A stretch of DNA of 64,000 bases from NCBI GenBank assembly GCA_023078555.1, contig CM041200.1, positions 4,058,936 to 4,122,935 on the forward strand. Direction: 5' to 3'. Below the pieces are notes generated by a model, which ran no database searches, was not told the DNA's origin, and was given only the letters and a program-made list of their open reading frames with translations. Below, piece after piece: positions 40,117 through 62,123 of this stretch (within the stretch, counting starts at the first letter, position 1; each line of letters starts with the position of its first letter). Source of the stretch: Ulva prolifera (Eukaryota > Chlorophyta > Ulvophyceae > Ulvales > Ulvaceae). Both the position numbers and the translations under genes were made by a program.

Positions 40117-43100
40117 TCACGCGTCTTGCACAATCTCATGCAAGAGCTGGCTGACCTCCGGGGAATCCGCGCGGGAAACCACCTTCATGGCCATGGATCC
40201 AGATGCATCTAATCCGAAAGAGATCCGCACAACAGCTGTATGGCCTCCGCAGAGCTCTCCCGAGAGCATGATGGAATGAGAACGGGCATTGTCTGTGACA
40301 ATGTCGGTTCCCTCAGCAACATACATTCCCATGTGCTCGATCATGGCCTCGACGATCCCTCTGACACCGCCTTGGGGCTCACCCAGACTGTAATCACCAC
40401 TCACTTCTGTTTCGGAGTCCAGCTCCTCCCAAGCAGCCTTGAAGTTCCCGACTGGTTTAGGTTTCATGTAGTCCGAATATGAAATCTGCACACACGGCCC
40501 CGCGCCTTGCAAGCACTGAATGCGTACAAACTATGATCAAGGCCTCCCCACAACATCGTCTGGCCTTCCCAGATGCTTCACCGGCCACACCAGCGACAAC
40601 ACGACAGTAATCGAGAGACAGAAGTGACACTCGCAGATTCACATCCGTTTGACAGAGCACCTCGATGTCTTCGAGTGGATACTCATCCTCATAGCCATCT
40701 TCCTCGACCTCTCCAGTCGTGGCATCGACCTCCTTGACAGTGAACTTGAGCAGAGCACCTGCTGTACCGCGAGACATGGAGCCCTCCTCGCGCATCAGCA
40801 CCAGGAACGTGCTGCCGGTGCTGTTGTGAGGCATGCGCTTCAGGGGCGCTGTCACATCATCAAGAGCCTCCATGCCCTCCAGCTCAGCCAAGTCGAGATC
40901 GACGGTGACATTCTCGAGGACCTGCAACCGCACACTCCTCACGAGCATCCCGCAACGTGCTACAGACCACAACGAACAGCGTTGCACAATCACACAACAG
41001 AAAGCAGATGCTCCACCGAGCTGGCTTTGACCACAAGGCCCACATTCATGCAGGTAGGACTCCCACTCGTCAGCCACACAACCAACACAGAGCACGCCAC
41101 GCAGGCCACCTAACGCCAGCACTCGTACACACCTGATCAGAGATAGTGTTCATGCAGTTGAACTGCAGAACAATGTGCTCGCCAAAGACGTGCTTGACAC
41201 ACGAGACATCATACTCCGTGTCCTCCTCGGTGACAGCCACGGCTTTGCAGCTCTTGAAGCGCGGCCCGAACGAAGCAAACGCCGGGTTGGCCTCCACCTC
41301 CTTCCCGAGATCCTCCTCGTCCGCAGCTGCCGCCGGCGCCGGGGCCGAGTCCATCGTCTTCTTACCCTTTTTCCTGCACACCACCGCACACGTGCATCGC
41401 CATGACCTCCAGCAAGCGCAGCATGTGGAACGCAAACACATGTGGCATGCACTAGCTTCACTATGATCAACGACAGTTCTTGCGGGCACCACTTGCCGAT
41501 CACCAACACCGGCGAGAAGGTGATGTGACTGGCGCTGCTGGTGCGGTCGGCAAACGGCCGCAAGGGACGGAGCCGGGCGGGCAGGGGCGGGGGCGCACAG
41601 CGGGACGGCCGGCTCCTCCACGGCCTTGTCGACGGTCTCGATGTCAAACTCGGCGTCCATCGGAGACGCGAGGTAGCTGCGCAGCGCCTTCTCGAGGTTG
41701 CCGAGGGGCACGCCGAGCTTCGGCACGACCATCTCGGGCGTGCCGGCGCGACTTTCGAGGTGTGCGAGGTACGCGGTGCAGCGGTCGCGGACCTCGTCGT
41801 CGCTGTCCGCGAGGCTGCGGCGCAGGATGATGATGATGCGGTCGCGCAGCTTTGGGCAACGCGCGCAGATGGCGGCGAGCGCCGACGTCGCGGCCGCGCG
41901 CACCGTCGCGTTCTCCAGGATGACGCGGTTGTAGATGAAGCGCACGAAGCGCGCGGGGTCGGCGGTGTCTGGGGCCATCTCACCCAGGAGGTGCAACACC
42001 TGCTCACACACACGATGTCATCACAGCGTCACGTCCCCATCCACACCAGCACTGTCCTGCAACGGCAAGCGCCATCGGAGAAAATGACACTCATTGAACC
42101 CACGGTTCCGGGTCAGAAATCCATCGGCTGGAGCAGGCAAACGTCCACAATGTGGCACAGGAAGGGCTGCTGCAACAGCACAGATGTACTGCCACACGCA
42201 CGGCCGAGAGCCGCTGCGCCTCACCTGGACAGCCAGCGGTGTGAATTCGCAGTCCTCGATGAACTCGGCGAGGTGGAGCAGGCCCGGCTCGCGTGCCTCC
42301 TCGATCGATTGGATGAGCGCCACCAGCGCCTCCACGATCGCGCGCTTGAACTCCGGGCCGCCCTCCTCCCGCAGCATGTGCGCGAGGAAGTTGAGCAGCA
42401 CGCGGTTCTTGCGGGGGTACTTCAGGCACAGCGCCTTGATGGCGCGCACGACGACGACCTTGAAGTCATCCGCGATGTCCGCCGTGAACGTGCGGATCTG
42501 CTTGAGCAGCCGGTCGACGCTGCTCTCGCTGCCCGTCTTGAGCAGCGTCGTGATCGCGTACACCGCGACCGAGCGGTTCGAGTCCATCATCAGCTGCTCC
42601 AGCTCGATGTTGCAGTTTGTGACGGAGGACGGGTGGACCGCGGAGACGGTGTTGAGGATGCGGACGGCCGCGAAGCGCAGCACGGGCTTGGCGGAGGAGA
42701 GGAAGAGGTGCAACACGGTGATGGCCGGCGCGAGCTCGCGCGGGGCGACGTCGCGCAGCTCGCTGATGGTGCGGGCGGCTTGGAACATGACCATGTCGCT
42801 CTTGTGCCTCAGGCTTGCAACGAGGTAGTCGTAGAAGGGTCGCTTCTCGCCCTCCGGCGGCGCGGTGGTATCCTTGAGCACCTTGGCAATGTACTTGATC
42901 TGTACACAGATACGTTGATCACATGCGTACAGCGTACTGGATGCCCAAAATCGTTGAGATCCAGGGTTTGGACGAAGCCAAGTAGGACCACCTAGGCAAT
43001 GAAACAGTGAAGATTGCTTCGACAAAGGCGTGAGGCTGTTGGATGCATGCTTTAATACCCTCCAGCTACTTGCTCTGCGTTTTCAGGGCGATCCTCCCTC

Positions 43101-51194: not shown

Positions 51195-53849
51195 ATGTTT
51201 AGTGCTTCTCGAGGTTGCTCAGGCCTTGCCGGGCACCCTGCCAAGAGTGGTGTAGGCGGTTGCAGCACAGCAATTCGGAGAGGAGTACGCTGCAACGCAA
51301 GACACAGGCGTCCAGGTATGTATGCGGATTACTGTACATTCACATTGTAGCTTTTGTATTGCGCCGGTCGAGCTGTGTTCAGTCACCAGCCTGTACAGGT
51401 TTGCTCGCGTCCCCTCACCTGGTAGTTCAGCTGGGCCGGATTCCGCGGAAAAGCTGTGCCTGTATAAGAACTGAATAGTATCGATGTAGTCCCGTTCGCA
51501 TGAAATGCATGCGCCAATGTGTTTAACTGCTGGCAGTGCCATCTGATTTCACGAAGAGCGATGATCTGACTATTTACAAGTCTATCCTGCCGTATGATGT
51601 AATTACAGCTATATTCTAGCTGATGTAGAGGCCGTACAGCCATACGGGACTGGCAGTCGCGTCCTCGCCTCGTCAGACACATTCAAAGATCAAACGTCAC
51701 AACGCGCAGTTGCACATACCCAGACATTCGTAAGCGTGATCCTCATGCAGACTATGCAAGTCGAAGGTCGGGCAGTGATGAGGAGAATGTGCGCCGGGCC
51801 AGCCGGGGTAACATATCCAGCGTTCGTGCGTCCAGTCCCGACACGGCCTCTGCCAGGGATGCATCCTGGGGTTGGGGACGCGAGCAGAACGGCAGGAGCA
51901 GCAATTCTCACGATTCTAATGGAGGAGCACCCATTGACCCTCGGTCGCGCCAGCGTCGATCAGCCAATTATGCATCGCGCAGGTCTAGCTCTGATCCAGA
52001 AAACAACAGGCGTCGTTCATCCTCTCCTGGGCCCTCTTTCTTTGATAACCCAGCTCCAACCTCCCCATCTCCGTCGCCTTCCAGAAACGGTGGGCCACCT
52101 GTTGACCCCCGGGTCCAGCGCCGCCGATCCATTGACTATGTATCGCGGCGAAATGGCTCCAGCAACGGTGCAGCACGTCGGCGCTCCGCCACCAGCCCAT
52201 CTCCCGGACCTGCGCAGGACCAGAGCAGCACTCCGTCATCGTCTCCCACCCGCAGCACCCCACATATCGACCCGCGGGTGCTCCGGCGCCGGTCAATCGA
52301 CTACGCCGCCCGTCGGACCGGCTCCAACAGCTCCGCTTCGCAACATGGCACCGCCTCCCCCAGCAGGCCCTCCGGCGGCCCCCCCATCGACCCCCGCGCC
52401 AGGCAGAGGCGGTCAGCCGACTACGCATCCCGCCGCAGTAGTTCATCACCCAGTAGCCGGCCGGCAGCAAGTCCTCTAGGCGAGTCAGCGCCGCAGAGCC
52501 CTGCGGGGTCCCCATCCCCATACCGGGACCCCCGCGTCCGCAGGCGGGGATCCGTGGACTACGCCTCTCGCCGCAGCAGCTCAGACGGCGGCAGCGCCCG
52601 CCGGCGCAGTTCCTCCAGCCGCACGCCCACGGCCTCAACGAGACGCGCCGCCGCATCTCGCGCCGCCCCGGCGGAGAGCCCCAGTGTCCACCAGCGCCAT
52701 TCGGTCGATTACAGCGGCCGCAGGGGCGCGCAGGACTCCGATGCGAGCCGCAGGTTCGTCGCGCCCGCTGCGGCCGCCGCCACCGGGCAGCCCCCGGTCC
52801 ACCGGAAATCAGCCGACTACGCCTCGCGCCGATCCGGCGGAGACGAAGAGAACCAGCGGCGGCGGTCCGCCGACTCGCGGGAGGCTCCCCGCGAGCCGTC
52901 GGCGGCCGCGCCGAGCGCCGCGTCGCCGCCGCGGCGGCAATCCACAACCCGACGCCGCAGTACGCCGGACTACGCGGCGCGTCGAGGCGGTGAGGTCACG
53001 CGGCGGCGGTCATCCGTCCACTCGCGTTCGCCACCTGCGCGGAGAGGCACCGCACCGGCGGGCGTGCCGGCCGACGCTCGCTCGAACAATGGCGGCGGTG
53101 CCCAGCCGTACATTGCGCGCAAGGCGATCCCGTCGTACGAGTCCCGCCGATCGCGCGACTTTGCGCAGCGGCGGCGCAGCATGCGCTACACGATGAAGGA
53201 GGTCCGCTCTGCGCTGGAGGCTCACAACCGGCGGACAGGTGTGCACCCCACATGCAACTGGTCGTGCGCTATGCTGTGTAGCCGAGCTGTTCGTCCACAG
53301 CGCCACAAAGTTCCGCAGCGAGGCCGATGCGCCCATGCGATGCTGACAGGGTGATGCCCATGCATTCTGCTTGTGCAATCGCCATGGGTGCTTAGGGCCG
53401 CTCACAAGCTGACGGCTACTGTGGTGTGACCGCATGCAGACAGCAGAACTGTTCCATGTACATGTGCAGGGCCCGTGACGAAGGGTCGTGCGCTTGCGGA
53501 CGTGGTGCCGGGTGCCATTCTTGCGGATGTCAATACGAAATTTCTCGAGAAGGCATCACGTGCGTGTGGGGTGTGTGCAGCTGGCGGCCGCATCTCGCCA
53601 CCGCCGATTCCCGGCAGCTCCGTCTTGGATGTGCCTTTTGTGGACTATGGCGCGCACGCATTGCGCTCGATCGAGGGCCTCCTGGACACGCTGTGCGAGA
53701 TCGCTAAGCTGCCCGCGGACGAGATCAAGCGTACCCCACCCCCCCGAAGCGTGCTGCGCCGGGACAGCGATGATGCGGCAAAGGGCGCTCTGAGGTCTCT
53801 TTCTGGCATTGCGAGTCTGATTGTGGAGAAGGCTCCAGTGTCGTGGTAG
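51195..53849 (+). CDS. DYASRR-repeat protein with transit-peptide-like start, novel architecture
   Basis: Exons 51195-51315, 51724-53238 and 53470-53849 join exactly in phase to give 671 residues. Residues 1-38 (MFSASRGCSGLAGHPAKSGV and so on to GVRCNA) lack acidic residues and are Ser/Gly/Arg-rich, like a chloroplast transit peptide with a possible processing site at VRCNA. Residues about 41-540 hold at least nine copies of a loose repeat, DPRxRxRRSxDYASRR followed by Ser-rich linkers, spaced 35-60 residues. The last 120 residues look globular (DVNTKFLEKASRACGVCAAG, GAHALRSIEGLLDTLCEIAK). The RRxS sites fit basophilic kinases. No family was recognised. A role as a multivalent RNA- or membrane-binding scaffold is only inference. 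Third-position GC rises sharply through exon 2. TGTAA lies at 54070. Confidence 0.75.
51732..53190 (+). repeat. Array of diverged DYASRR protein repeats
   Basis: Copies of the core read DYASRR, NYASRR, DYVSRR, DYAARR, DYASRR, DYASRR, DYSGRR, DYASRR and DYAARR in order from about 51747 to 52985, with a decayed tenth (SYESRR) near 53140. Most are preceded by RRRS or RRS and, in the first half, by PIDPR or VDPR. The DNA is diverged at synonymous sites, so the array is old and held by protein-level selection rather than being a recent satellite. Confidence 0.8.
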
Positions 53850-55491: not shown

Positions 55492-58400
55492 ATGACAGAG
55501 CTGGGTGACACAAATGGCTCACAGGCCGTGGTCGCCGTTGACACTGTCAGGTCAGCTAAATTACCCGCCCCGCAGCTCGATGTCGTCGAAACACAGACAA
55601 GGGCTATTGGCCTGATCATCCCTCCTCATGATATACGTGTGATCATAGATAAAACAGCAGATTTCGTGGCAAAGAATGGTGCGACGCTGCCACATGCAAG
55701 GAGCAAGTGCAGGCCCATTGATGGGGCACGTGTCGACAAAGGCTTCAGCATAAGGCATCTACAGGGACGGCGTTTGAGCAGAAAATTCTTGCTCAACCGA
55801 GCAATGACAGCAGGAGAAAATTCAACTTCTTGAACTCAACAGACCCTTATCACAAGTACTACAAGTACAAGATCACGGAAGCGAAAGATGGACCAGAAGC
55901 AGCCAAAGCTCAGTTTGAAGCAGCCGGAGGCACGGGGGCAACCCCCTCTGGAGTAGATGAGCAAGATAAACAGGAGGAAGAAGCACCGCCACCAACCCAA
56001 GAACTTCGAAAACCAGACGATGAAAAGTATGCAGTGCACGTTCCTGCAGGTCTTAGTTTCCAGGTGCCCTCTCTTCACACCATCACGGGTCTCCGCACGT
56101 GAAGCTGAGGTTTGGCAGGTTACAAGCTCTGACGCCCTGCAGGAACTCGACATCATCAAACTGACGGCTCAGTTTGTCGCCTTGAACGGCTCAAGTTTTC
56201 TTAGTGGTCTGAAGTCCCGCGAAGAGAACAAAAGAGAGTTCCACTTTCTCAAGGAGAATCATAGCCTCAACCTGTTCTTCAAACGCCTGACTGATGCATA
56301 CTCAGCAGTACGACTTGACAGCAAGGAAGCGCTCGTGCGCCTCAACGAAGATGCAACCGACGCCAACGCAGTTCTGCAAAGGTGCGCTGTGTCCTGAGGC
56401 AAGTGCATCAGTCGGAATCGCTGCCTGGAAACCACGTCATCCGCTGCAGCCTTGGAGAACCCACCACCATGTCCCTGGGCTGCCAGCCAAGCCTGTTGTC
56501 ACCCTGCTTTACCGCAGCGGAGGCCTGGTCCTGAAAGATACTTGCAGGCTCGTTTGCTGTATGTGCTTCTGTGTTGACCCGATCAGGCCCTTGCAAGTCT
56601 GTTCGAAGTTGATGGCAACCGCTTGTGCCTGAAGGTGCCTTCAGAGGCTAGAGTGGAACCGCGCCAAAGAGTCGGAGGCTGACGAGGCGCGCGTTGAGAG
56701 GGAGCGGGAGCGCATGGCGATGCTCCTGATAGACTGGCACGACTTCTCGGTCGTGCGCACGATCGATTTTGACGAATCTGAAGACCTGACGCTCCTCGGG
56801 CCGCCAGTGAACAAGCAGAACGTCATTCAGATGAACCGCGGCGCGGACGCAGAGGACGACGGTGAGCCTCCTCCTCACTCTGCTTGCCAGCATCCTCTCG
56901 TGTGTCCAGCTAGTCACTTGGTCGGCTAGAGGCCTCTGCTGGCGGGCGGTTCATGCACGTGTTCCTGTTCAAATGTAGAGTTTAGCCCTTGAAACACCCC
57001 GGCAGGTGTCAACCAAACATCATTGTTCATCGTCTGCGCCAGCATCACGCCGTTTTGATGTCATCCCGAGCAGCGTGCTGTCGCTCGCTTGAGGTCATCG
57101 TGTGCTCGTCCACCGTGGCAGCACTGGAGGCCTAATTCCCGACCTGATCTGCAGGAATGGACGCAACGGACGTGCCGGCGGCGGGTGGAGCTGCGCCGGC
57201 GCCGCCTGCAACAGGGGCAGTGTCAGCTGCAGCAGACGATGAGGAGGCGGCGCTCATCGCCGCCGGGCAGTCGGCGATGCCCGGCCCCCCTGCCGCCGCA
57301 CCACTCGCCCCTCCCCCCGCCCCCATGGCTCCGGACTCCGCCGCAGGGCAGGTCCTTGTGGCTGCAGACGATGAGGACGGCCCCATCAAGGTGCGGAGCA
57401 TACTTGCACCGCCATACGGGTGAACAACCGACCGGGGCGGTCCGTTGACGTGAATACATGTGGCGTCCGTCATGAAGTGCAGATGTTGCCGTGTCGTGTG
57501 GTACCTCATGCGTGTCGCTCCGTGCCTGTGTTGTTCCAGGTGTGAGTGCTGTGGCTTTGTTTTACTGTGCTCGCTTCTGCTAACAGCGCTCACGCACCCG
57601 CGCTTGCTGAGACTGGTTCGTCAGCACCTGTCCCTGTGCTAGGCATCGACGGTCACCGAGGTTCATAGGAGAACAGTCCTCCAGATGAGTCCGGTCGGTC
57701 GTGCCAGCAGACGCGAGTGCAAAGATTGCATGAGCGCCGGCCATCGCATGCCACAACGCCAAGACAGACTGCCGATCACCGAAAGTAGACGCTTTGGGCG
57801 GCTGCATGTCTGCTTGTTTGGAACATGCAGGACATCCTCAAGGCCCCCCTGTGCGCCGCACCGGCAGAGTGCGTGTCTGTGTGGATGTCCGGGTGCATAT
57901 ATCGCGAGAAGCAGTGCTGCATGGGTGGCGCGTGTGCAGGTTGTGAAGGACTACACGCGGACCGAGGGTGGCCAGGAGTACGACCCTGCCAAGTATGCGG
58001 TGTCGCCCATCACCGGCGAGCTTGTGTTGCTGACAGAGATGCAGGAGCACATGAGAATCAACCTGATCGACCCCAAGTGGAAGGACCAGCGCGAGGCGAT
58101 GCTGGCCAAGATCAAGGAGACTACCAAGGCCTCTGATACGGAGATCATGTCGAATCTAAACCGCCTCGCCGGCACCCGGCCAGACGTGTTTGGCAGCACC
58201 TCGCAGCTGCGTAGTGCGATAGGGGAGGCGGCAGGGGCGGGGGGGGCGCTCGCGCGCGACGGCCCGGCGGCGCCGAAAGCGCCTCCACTGCCAAAGGGGC
58301 AAACGCCGATGCTGGCGCCCCTGCCGGCTGCGCCGGCGGGAGTAGCGACGATGAAGCCACCTCCCCCCCCGGCGTGGACAGGGGGAGCGCCGAAGCCACA

Positions 58401-58524
58401 GGGACCGCCGCCGGGGGCGCCTCCGGCTCTGCCGCCGCCGCCCGGCGCTCTGCCGCGGCCGGCACCGCTGCCTGCGCCGCAGCCACCCCCAGGCGAGCCG
58501 GACCCAAAGCGGCAACGGACTTGA
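55492..58524 (+). CDS. SF3A1: Splicing factor 3A subunit 1 (SF3A1/Prp21), lacking the C-terminal ubiquitin-like domain
   Basis: Six exons join in phase: 55492-55678, 55765-56063, 56143-56381, 56647-56861, 57155-57390 and 57940-58524, giving 586 residues. Two SURP modules are present: IIDKTADFVAKNGTAFEQKI followed by KFNFLNSTDPYHKYYKYKI, and ELDIIKLTAQFVALNGSSFL followed by HFLKENHSLNLFF. The SF3A3-binding charged helix (RLEWNRAKESEADEARVERE), LIDWHDFSVVRTIDF and YDPAKYAVSPITGELV with MQEHMRINLIDPKW follow as usual. SF3A1 belongs to the U2 snRNP SF3a complex and its SURP2 binds SF3A3. Plant and animal orthologs are about 785-793 residues and end in a ubiquitin-like domain that contacts U1 snRNA; this one stops at PDPKRQRT, exactly where the linker to that domain starts. 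TGTAA follows at 58592. Confidence 0.92.
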
Positions 58525-59275: not shown

Positions 59276-62123
59276 CTAATGCTGCAGCCCGTAGACATCC
59301 ATCAGCAATGCTCCCACCATCTCATACTTTCGCATTCTCTGCCAGCCCTCTACCCCCAGATCCTCACACAGCTCCTGCAGCTTGTTCATTGACAATGCTG
59401 ACAGGCTCTCGAAATCATCTTCGACATTGGCCCCACCCAGAGACACCTGAGCTGCTCCCGTTACCAGCCTGCTCTGTCCAGGCTGTGCCTTTTCACCCTG
59501 CCTACCTTCACTCGCCCTCTGCTGTACATGCGCACCAGTGTGGTCATGAGCAGCCGCGGGCCCCCCGGCCCCCCCAAACGGCAACCACTGTTTAAGACGC
59601 GAAAACACATCCTGCCCCCGTTGCACTGTGTCCGGAGGTACCTCTGGAGTCACCTCGACATCACTACCATGGCCTTCATCCTCGCTGTCATACGACTTGC
59701 CAAAACGATACACAGTCCTGGGTGACCCCGCCAAGCGCGATCCCGATCGAGGGGACCCTGACCCACGAGAACCAGCCCGCGCACATAGAGGCTGTGCAGC
59801 CTCCCCCTCCCGTTCAGCCTCATCCCCGTCAGCCTCGTCTAAATGCCCATGAGCAACCTCAGGCACACTCCAGCCAAGGGTCATGTTGGCCAGAATGATC
59901 TCTGCAACAAGCTGCACGACGAGCTCGGACTTGGACAGGCGGCCAAAGTTGGATAGGCCCATGTCTTTCGCGAGCCGCTGCAGGGTCGGAAGGCTGTAGT
60001 GCGAGAGATTGCTGGTGTCCAGGTTGGCAATCCGTGTCTGCATGTGAGCATCACGCCGAGATGACCGCCGCATGGCACTGTTCCGCTGACCCACTGCTCC
60101 ACGCCGCACAGAGTGCTCTGCAGAGCACAGGAACGTGAAAACAGCAGTTCTGAAGCTGTCCTTCACATGATGTGCTTGGTACCACTGCAGTCTCGTGTAC
60201 TGTAGTCTCATCAGAAGAGAGGTCATGAACGTACAGGAGGATCTGAAACAGGCAGTGCAGGAAGGTAGAAATTCACACCTGGCATGGCCGATGGTAGACT
60301 CGAGTGGGACACTGCACGCGCAAATGTTCGGGATGCATGGTCATCCAGGGGCTCCAGACATTTGTCGCTGCCTGTTCGTGGGTCCTCTATGTCCTGCTGA
60401 ACATCGCTGTTCGACTTTTGCTCCACTTCTTGTGACGACGAAGGCCTGTCAGATGAGACAGGCTGACTCTCACTTTGCCTTGGACTAGGTGGATCCTTTG
60501 CGGGGAACTCAGTTTGCAGGACACCCTTTTGCTTTGGGTCAGTTCGACTGCGCTTGGTTGCAGGCGGCAGCTTGGGAACAGGTCTGCGAGGATAGTGAGC
60601 CGGAGTACCAGCCTGGTATCCCTTCGGGAGAGTGGGATTGATTTTGAAGAATGACTCTGCAGCAACTCTGGTCTGGATGTCATCAGCCTCATGCGCTTGC
60701 ACAGGCTCATGCACAGGAGATGGCATGTGTGATGAGAAAAACGGCTGGGCGCTGCTGGGAGAGTACATCCCCTCTCCATTCTGCGGCTGGCTGTCTGCAG
60801 CCTCGTGTGCGCTTTGCTGCACGCCAGCAACGTCGTCGTCAATGGCTCCCTGTGTATGTGCATTGCTGCTGTCATCTCTCCCTGAAGGAGCGCTCTGCTG
60901 CTCCCAGAAACCATTGCTTTGGGCCTTGCTGCTGGAATCTACACCATTTGATGATGGCTCCACCTCACCTTGAAGTGGAATGTGAGGCAGTGACTGGCTC
61001 CGTCCATCACGGCCGGCAGCATGGCGCTGCTCACTGCGTTCTTCTCTAGAGGACCGCGGCTGTGCACCATTGCTGACTCTGACAGCACCAGGTATGCCGG
61101 GCTGAGAAGCATTGGTTTGCTGGTGACGGCCTCCCGCAGACGCACCGTTGTGAGCACGTGCAGACCTATGGATGGAACCATTGTGCACCTTTGGAGATGC
61201 GCTTCCGGAGTAGCGACCATTTGAACCGCTGGGGCTGAATGCACGCCCACGGCTCTGGCTCCTCTCAGCAGCAGCTGACCGGCTACGGCCTGGCTGAGAT
61301 TTCCCTGACTGATTGCCGATTTCACTACCGCTGTTGGTGGGACTGCTGTTTAGGCCATCGTCCTGAGCTGACTGGTCACCTGGTGCCATCCACGGCTCAA
61401 CGATTGGATCCGCAGGAGACCACCCATTGGACCCTTTCGCCGCCCGATCTGATGTGAAAAACCCAGGTATAGCATGGCCATCTGATTTTTGGGAAGCGCC
61501 CGCTTGCTTCTCCTGGTTTGGGGCACTTGAGCCTGGCCCAGCATGTGTTGACCCATTAGAATCTCTAGAGGCAGCCTCGTACGTGTGATTGTTGAACTGT
61601 TCATGACAAACGTCGTCATCGTAAAACAGTCGCCGAGCTGTATCTTGTGTGCTGTCTTCAGGATGATATACAGGAAGCTGAAGGGGGCTGGGCTTGACGA
61701 GTCGAGAAGCAACTTCGGCGTAACCTGCTAGCGTGTCATCATCTGCAAAGTCGTTGCGTGTTATATGACCGATCTACCTGAATGTGACTTCATCAAAGAT
61801 GTTTGGCTCGGGCCTGAAGTGCAACTTTTGTGAGGCAACAGCCTGATCGCGGAGACGGCTACGCGCGTACCTTCGGCATCCAGCAATTCGCTTGTGTCCT
61901 GTTCCATGGGCACTGGATACTCCGCTTCTTCGGCCGGATCAGAATTCTGGGAAAGTACAAGAACCATTGTGTCTTGATCTTTGTAATGTCGCATTTCGGC
62001 GAGGCTGAGGTTGTATTCTTGGGTGGGAGTTGCCCTCCGGACTGTGCTGGACGAAGCGGACCATGAGCCCCGCGGACCCGGTGAATGAGCATCGGAAGCA
62101 CTATATAGCTTATCTGCAAACAT
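59276..62123 (-). CDS. Large disordered protein with two C-terminal Rho_N/SAP-like modules, novel
   Basis: Exons 61871-62123, 60279-61742 and 59276-60117 join exactly in phase to give 852 residues. Exon 1 holds EYNLSLAEMRHYKDQDTMVL and an acidic tail. Exon 2 is a 488-residue low-complexity region rich in Ser, Gln, Gly, Asn and Pro with RS-like parts (SRSAAAERSQSRGR). Exon 3 begins with a basic segment (EHSVRRGAVGQRNSAMRRSS), then module 1, HYSLPTLQRLAKDMGLSNFG with RLSKSELVVQLV, at about residues 612-650. An acidic/Ser-rich linker follows, and module 2, LSALSMNKLQELCEDLGVEG with WQRMRKYEMVGALL, closes the protein. Both modules match the Rho_N helix-turn-helix pattern, which binds nucleic acid. 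The first exon does not look like a clear transit peptide. The function is unknown; RNA binding is inferred from the modules only. Confidence 0.75.

Follow-up and report, generated by a model that had tools for sequence, protein, structure and literature searches.

The genome of Ulva prolifera carries a short basic unit of the general form P-phi-phi-x-R-[RK]-x-x-D-Y-[AS]-[SA]-R-R-S-G on several proteins of differing architecture, encoded at five loci. With somewhat more belief than doubt, we read this unit as a lineage-specific Rubisco- or pyrenoid-binding motif system, in which the protein encoded in the window (the whole 64-kb stretch of DNA analysed here) is a linker or tether with Rubisco as its presumed partner. 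In the following, P1 is the window gene, and P2 to P5 are four further loci of the same genome that carry the unit.

P1 was described from three exons on the plus strand (51195–51315, 51724–53238 and 53470–53849), which join to 2016 nt encoding 671 amino acids. The frame is open throughout, both introns are GT-AG and the one stop is terminal. For intron 1, however, two acceptors lie 27 nt apart (51723, used in that description, and 51750), and each preserves the frame. We prefer 51750 because our models of P2, P3 (twice) and P4 begin an exon at the matching point, CAG/A(C/T)TA(C/T), where the first slash marks the junction. Intron 1 may thus end at 51750 instead of 51723, giving a product nine residues shorter (662 amino acids). 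The preferred model reads:

51195..51315, plus strand: exon 1, start codon and a 40-residue leader without Asp or Glu that ends VRCNARHRRP; donor CAG/GTATGT, phase 1
51316..51750, plus strand: intron 1, phase 1, acceptor CATGCAG/ACTATGC
51751..53238, plus strand: exon 2, repeat array of ten units, pI 11.9
53239..53469, plus strand: intron 2, CAG/GTGTGC ... GTGCAG/GG
53470..53849, plus strand: exon 3, C-terminal region of 125 residues past the junction codon, plus stop; no known family

An antisense open reading frame of 336 amino acids (51985–52995) was put down to the GC-rich array on the opposite strand, as its shadow, and set aside. An Rfam scan of the 64-kb window at gathering scores gave no match. 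Among ten neighbouring frames scanned in the window, seven had no match; the others resemble a PRP21-like splicing factor (57643–58521, plus strand, PF12230), an adaptin N-terminal region (42024–43082, minus strand, PF01602) and Rho_N (59279–60340, minus strand, PF07498).

The units of exon 2 are as follows:

51751..51767, plus strand: unit 1, core (D)YASRR, then SGSDEENVRR
51954..51983, plus strand: unit 2, core RRSANYASRR
52122..52151, plus strand: unit 3, core RRSIDYVSRR
52287..52316, plus strand: unit 4, core RRSIDYAARR
52407..52436, plus strand: unit 5, core RRSADYASRR
52545..52574, plus strand: unit 6, core RGSVDYASRR
52695..52724, plus strand: unit 7, core RHSVDYSGRR
52803..52832, plus strand: unit 8, core RKSADYASRR, then SGGDEENQRRRS
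52956..52985, plus strand: unit 9, core RSTPDYAARR
53121..53150, plus strand: unit 10, core KAIPSYESRR, a P5-like variant (compare PSYEARRSG)

Ten copies of Yx[SAG]RR occur in the 495 residues encoded by 51753–53237, against a mean of 0.2 and a maximum of 3 in 2000 shuffles of the same residues, and the units are spaced 36–72 residues apart. Across the nine units whose upstream part is complete, identity is 61% in the ten-residue core (221 of 360 residue pairs), but 17.5% in the stretch 14–23 residues past the Tyr. Different codons are used at 132 of the 221 identical core residues, with differences most frequent at codon position 3 (64%, versus 36% and 26% at the other two), and the core is therefore kept as protein and not as DNA. 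Judged from these comparisons, the P1 units are held by protein-level selection and are not a recent DNA tandem, as the preliminary description had also argued. That text spoke of nine or more DPR-xRRRS-xDYASRR units; the array is real and the count is ten, but DPR is present in only five of them. It further proposed a multivalent array with basic Ser sites, which the ten units of exon 2 support, and a repeat without a known family; indeed, not one Pfam family matched over the whole of P1. The unit is not private to the window gene, since it is common to five loci. On a simple scale applied to nine hand-picked segments, the linkers are Pro/Ser-rich and the units more helix-favouring.

The assembly from which the window comes (88.9 Mb, 44 contigs) was searched heuristically, so that five loci are a lower bound. 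With P1 as query a single further locus was found, P2 (E 2.7e-9), while P3, P4 and P5 came from motif patterns and further protein searches of the same genome. A typed consensus of four units gave 18 rows, 14 of which, all with E ≤0.54, fall in P1 to P5 only; the remaining four (E 2.2–5.4) resemble chance. Two rows, C2:5352611 (E 1.55) and C3:7971139 (E 2.31), contained no unit and were discarded. In three pattern scans the five loci accounted for 9 of 20, 7 of 17 and 12 of 13 matches, and the reversed patterns gave 103, 17 and 5; with controls this high, the case from scans one and two rests only on context, namely an open frame, neighbouring units and Glu-Glu-Asn. The further carriers are:

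C5:4980130-4980942, minus strand: P2, leader candidate MLSLRAPVASARRAVVLNARRPQP 783 nt upstream (one of two candidates), then six units
C2:11323673-11327019, minus strand: P3, seven units over several exons, then a PGRL1-like membrane domain
C1:10201703, plus strand: P4, one unit at an exon start, then an RbcX-II-like region
C3:4036097-4039716, minus strand: P5, eleven unit-like copies in open frames of 920 and 225 residues

From all five loci we took 34 units, leaving out one degenerate P5 copy, FSARH. While the Tyr and the two Arg were fixed by the search expression, there is an Asp before the Tyr in 24 units, Arg at −5 in 24, Ser at +5 in 21, Gly at +6 in 23 and Arg at +13 in 22. Glu-Glu-Asn comes after the unit in 13 of the 34, every one of the five genes having such a case, and by a loose expression a basophilic Ser/Thr site lies just upstream of the core in 23. 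In 15 units the 12 residues ahead of the Tyr contain the pattern phi-phi-x-[RK]-[RK], where shuffling each stretch gives 0.9; since the units are mutually related, this excess speaks for a conserved order and not for the identity of a site. The strings DYAARR, DYASRR and RRSVDY were not seen in print among the literature matches listed.

In P2, the units are spaced 33, 56, 56, 56 and 50 residues apart, and by analogy this protein, with its leader and six units, looks like a pyrenoid linker. In P3, six units are spaced 49–88 residues apart, and the exon after the last unit continues in frame (NNTQ/EENMRRRS) into the PGRL1-like domain. This C-terminus is 36% identical (E 3.4e-26) to the product of another gene of the same genome, L035, which we take to be PGRL1, although no PDB or Pfam match to L035 named PGRL1. 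Both proteins have two hydrophobic peaks and both CxxC motifs, but the N-terminal part of L035 is absent from P3 in the alignment; P3 (region C2:11321000-11330500, minus strand) resembles a PGRL1-like membrane protein with a repeat array replacing its N-terminal part. A second PGRL1-like gene lies at C1:3186083-3186559, and no unit was seen in the frame read there.

The region that follows the single unit of P4 (145 residues) scored 14.6 bits against an HMM made from five RbcX stretches of solved structure plus the RbcX of this genome, compared with 7.0 for the best of 2000 shuffles. Pairwise z was 7.7 with Arabidopsis RbcX2, 6.3 with the genome's own RbcX and 1.6 with cyanobacterial RbcX. P4 thus shares an RbcX-like core with RbcX-II but stays under the Pfam cut-off (12.5 of the required 27 bits), and P4 alone found no RbcX in the PDB. 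At the level of sequence, then, P3 is homologous to PGRL1-like proteins and P4 is similar to RbcX. To our knowledge, neither PGRL1 nor RbcX-II carries such a motif. RbcX is a Rubisco assembly chaperone, and the genome holds its own RbcX together with RbcS (two loci) and three LCIB_C_CA loci, so we take it as that of a green alga equipped with carbon-concentrating genes; no rbcL turned up in this assembly. The genome's own RbcX frame (C1:5645515 region, minus strand) ends ...RGRHSPNYRRGSSEGIARSRREDE, which resembles a degenerate unit (compare HQRHSVDYSGRRGAQD of P1).

The P5 units sit behind Ala/Glu-rich, coiled-coil-like frames. The frames that precede P5 share similar stretches such as LRALAASFA and LQSLAASLES (region C3:4029000-4048800, minus strand), and a tandem repeat, ASWQLTNWPLHGSSPTGRFMAAHQLA, lies about 4.5 kb upstream. 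A SAGA1-like identity for P5 through CBM20 was considered and rejected, as none of the nine CBM20 matches in the genome lies near P5. When the P1 C-terminus, P2 and part of P5 were compared by sequence with the PDB, no linker came up.

Our models of P1, P2, P3 (twice) and P4 place an exon start within the Asp codon of Asp-Tyr. In P4 the sequence forces this boundary, with only 18 nt of open frame upstream, no ATG and a single AG. In P1 to P3 the frame is open for 87–282 nt upstream with several AG sites, and there the splice site is a choice, made by analogy and by the fit of phase-1 leader exons; the gene models and their common intron position are in that measure putative. CAG-AY-TAY is also found within P3 exons (L049 and L050, two of the seven family rows of the pattern scan), and taken alone it therefore does not establish a splice site. 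Nevertheless, since in four gene models an exon opens with the unit and divides the Asp codon of Asp-Tyr, the unit may be mobile and may have spread as an exon. Four 19-base pattern matches on C4 (2606807, 2651414, 2680278 and 2715616) are identical, have identical upstream flanks over the 60 bases shown and lie about 29–45 kb apart, suggesting a dispersed or segmental repeat.

Acceptor 51750 also lines up the leaders of P1 (VRCNARHRRP-DYASRR) and P2 (VVLNARRPQP-DYAARR). Leader candidates were found for P3 and P4 too, and all four have a cleavage-like site. At 400 random window positions, 35% yielded a candidate exon of some kind, and 3% a candidate that also had a cleavage-like site; given these rates, and since the cleavage-site expression was written after the leaders had been seen, the P3 and P4 leaders are tentative. 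The plastid import proposed in the preliminary description is probable for P1, judging by its 40-residue leader without an acidic residue, ending VRCNA-R, by the similar end of the P2 leader, and by the plastid-type domains of P3 and P4. All five carriers would be plastid proteins.

The conserved-looking C-terminal domain of about 120 residues that was also proposed found no support. The region has no Pfam or NCBIfam family above cut-off (its only matches, Pou at E 0.11 and near_NosP_CTERM at E 0.16, are below it) and, at a limit of E 0.1, a search of the genome gave no second copy. Exon 3 was modelled as helical at low confidence (mean pLDDT 39), too poor for a fold search, and the P1 C-terminus showed no more local similarity to the P3 membrane domain or to L035 than 300 shuffles did. 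A PDB match to a TAL effector (E 1.5e-6) contained no single passing stretch and was rejected as summed weak repeat similarity.

The repeat of EPYC1 is about 60 residues long, and the Rubisco-binding motif of Chlamydomonas has the form [DN]W[RK]xx[LIVA]; this form had no match in P1, the main exons of P2 and P3, or both P5 frames. The two systems differ in the sequence of the motif and in that the Ulva carriers include PGRL1-like and RbcX-like domains. They are alike in that a single short motif recurs on a repeat linker, on membrane tethers and on further proteins, in Chlamydomonas EPYC1, RBMP1, RBMP2, SAGA1, SAGA2 and KEY1. The Chlamydomonas pyrenoid is proposed to be assembled through one Rubisco-binding motif, which EPYC1, RBMP1/2 and SAGA1/2 carry and which is common to the linker, membrane tethers and starch-binding proteins; the available text of this source describes the motif as unknown outside Volvocales and suggests that other lineages use other common motifs (PMC10473226). 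With the carriers also pointing this way, we read the Ulva unit as a presumed Rubisco-binding motif. According to the accessible part of a further report, the Rubisco-binding sites of EPYC1 are phosphorylated by KEY1, in or next to the motif, and this promotes condensate dissolution (PMC13086578). The Ser of the Ulva RRRSxDY would be a possible counterpart.

Pyrenoid linkers have been sought in a FLIPPer search with a repeat spacing of 20–120 residues (PMC11570498, in part), a range that holds P1 (36–72), P2 (33–56) and the six P3 units (49–88). The same partial source describes CsLinker of Chlorella sorokiniana, with a predicted plastid leader and six repeats with helices of about 10 residues, as binding RbcL via F173, L174 or M240, R176 and K177 (PMC11570498). 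By description, not alignment, these helix contacts resemble the phi-phi-x-R-[RK] ahead of the Ulva Tyr core, and the phi-phi-x-R-K half may even engage RbcL where CsLinker does. However, the available text on CsLinker describes no counterpart of the D-Y-[AS]-[SA]-R-R core and no family of other carriers (PMC11570498). PYCO1 of diatoms is likewise a repeat linker that phase-separates with Rubisco, as its source has it in the part available (PMC10288592), but it belongs to a red-type pyrenoid and is likened here by repeat-linker character, not by motif. Apart from CsLinker, the literature matches listed held no such motif or linker from a trebouxiophyte, a lichen alga or another green alga.

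Because one carrier is RbcX-like and one PGRL1-like, the partner is most likely Rubisco or the pyrenoid matrix; we prefer this to the plastid RNA or pigment complexes named in the preliminary description. P1 would then be a plastid-imported, mostly disordered linker or tether, whose ten motifs would each bind one common partner weakly, most likely Rubisco, and would cross-link many Rubisco holoenzymes into the pyrenoid matrix, presumably by phase separation. On P2 to P5 the same motif would bring those proteins to that location too: P2 would serve as main repeat linker, P3, being PGRL1-like, as thylakoid anchor, the RbcX-like P4 as a factor in Rubisco assembly, and P5 as a large scaffold. If P1 is a tether, its C-terminal region would contact something else. 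By analogy with EPYC1 and KEY1, as the available text presents them (PMC13086578), the Ser of RRRSxDY, inside the motif, could be a phosphorylation switch.

A motif as strongly basic as this one could instead bind RNA or an acidic membrane. Basic arrays commonly bind nucleic acids, and P1 has 113 Arg and 116 Ser in 671 residues, RS-rich linkers and the high pI of exon 2. A plastid array might on these grounds bind RNA, DNA of the nucleoid or acidic thylakoid lipids, with P3 merely anchored in the membrane and P4 holding a copy gained by exon duplication. We consider this unlikely, since charge alone would not call for the Asp-Tyr pair present in 24 of 34 units, and since the carriers are PGRL1-like and RbcX-like.

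More doubtful still is a reading in which a plastid kinase or phosphatase, or another stromal hub, uses the unit for docking or as its substrate, such that the arrays gather that enzyme and not Rubisco. The basophilic sites just before the core fit such a role, but the RbcX-like and PGRL1-like carriers would be left unexplained, and basic Ser sites are equally expected in a phospho-regulated Rubisco linker such as EPYC1, as far as the available text on it goes (PMC13086578). The Ser/Arg-rich composition would also suit a nuclear or cytoplasmic SR-like protein with an accidental plastid leader. To us this seems very improbable: the P1 and P2 leaders end alike (NAR...P) ahead of Asp-Tyr in the gene models, P3 and P4 have plastid-type domains, and the whole of P1 has no Pfam domain, hence no RNA-recognition domain, at E up to 10.

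Returning to the Rubisco-binding motif, we give a little less than an even chance to a broader proposal: that Ulva has a second, independently evolved Rubisco-binding-motif system outside Volvocales, in which a unit the size of one exon, its start set by a phase-1 intron within Asp-Tyr, was copied by exon duplication onto a linker, a PGRL1-like anchor, an RbcX-like factor and a scaffold. One weak interaction would then organise the pyrenoid and couple Rubisco assembly with cyclic electron flow. PGRL1 supports this flow, which is thought to supply protons to the CO2-concentrating mechanism, as stated in the available part of PMC10473226. The Ulva genome offers a concrete motif and five loci for testing. 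If the proposal is true, the use of one shared motif to assemble pyrenoids would have more than one origin, a Rubisco chaperone relative and a PGRL1-like protein would join the known kinds of client, and the unit would provide a compact binding peptide for pyrenoid engineering.
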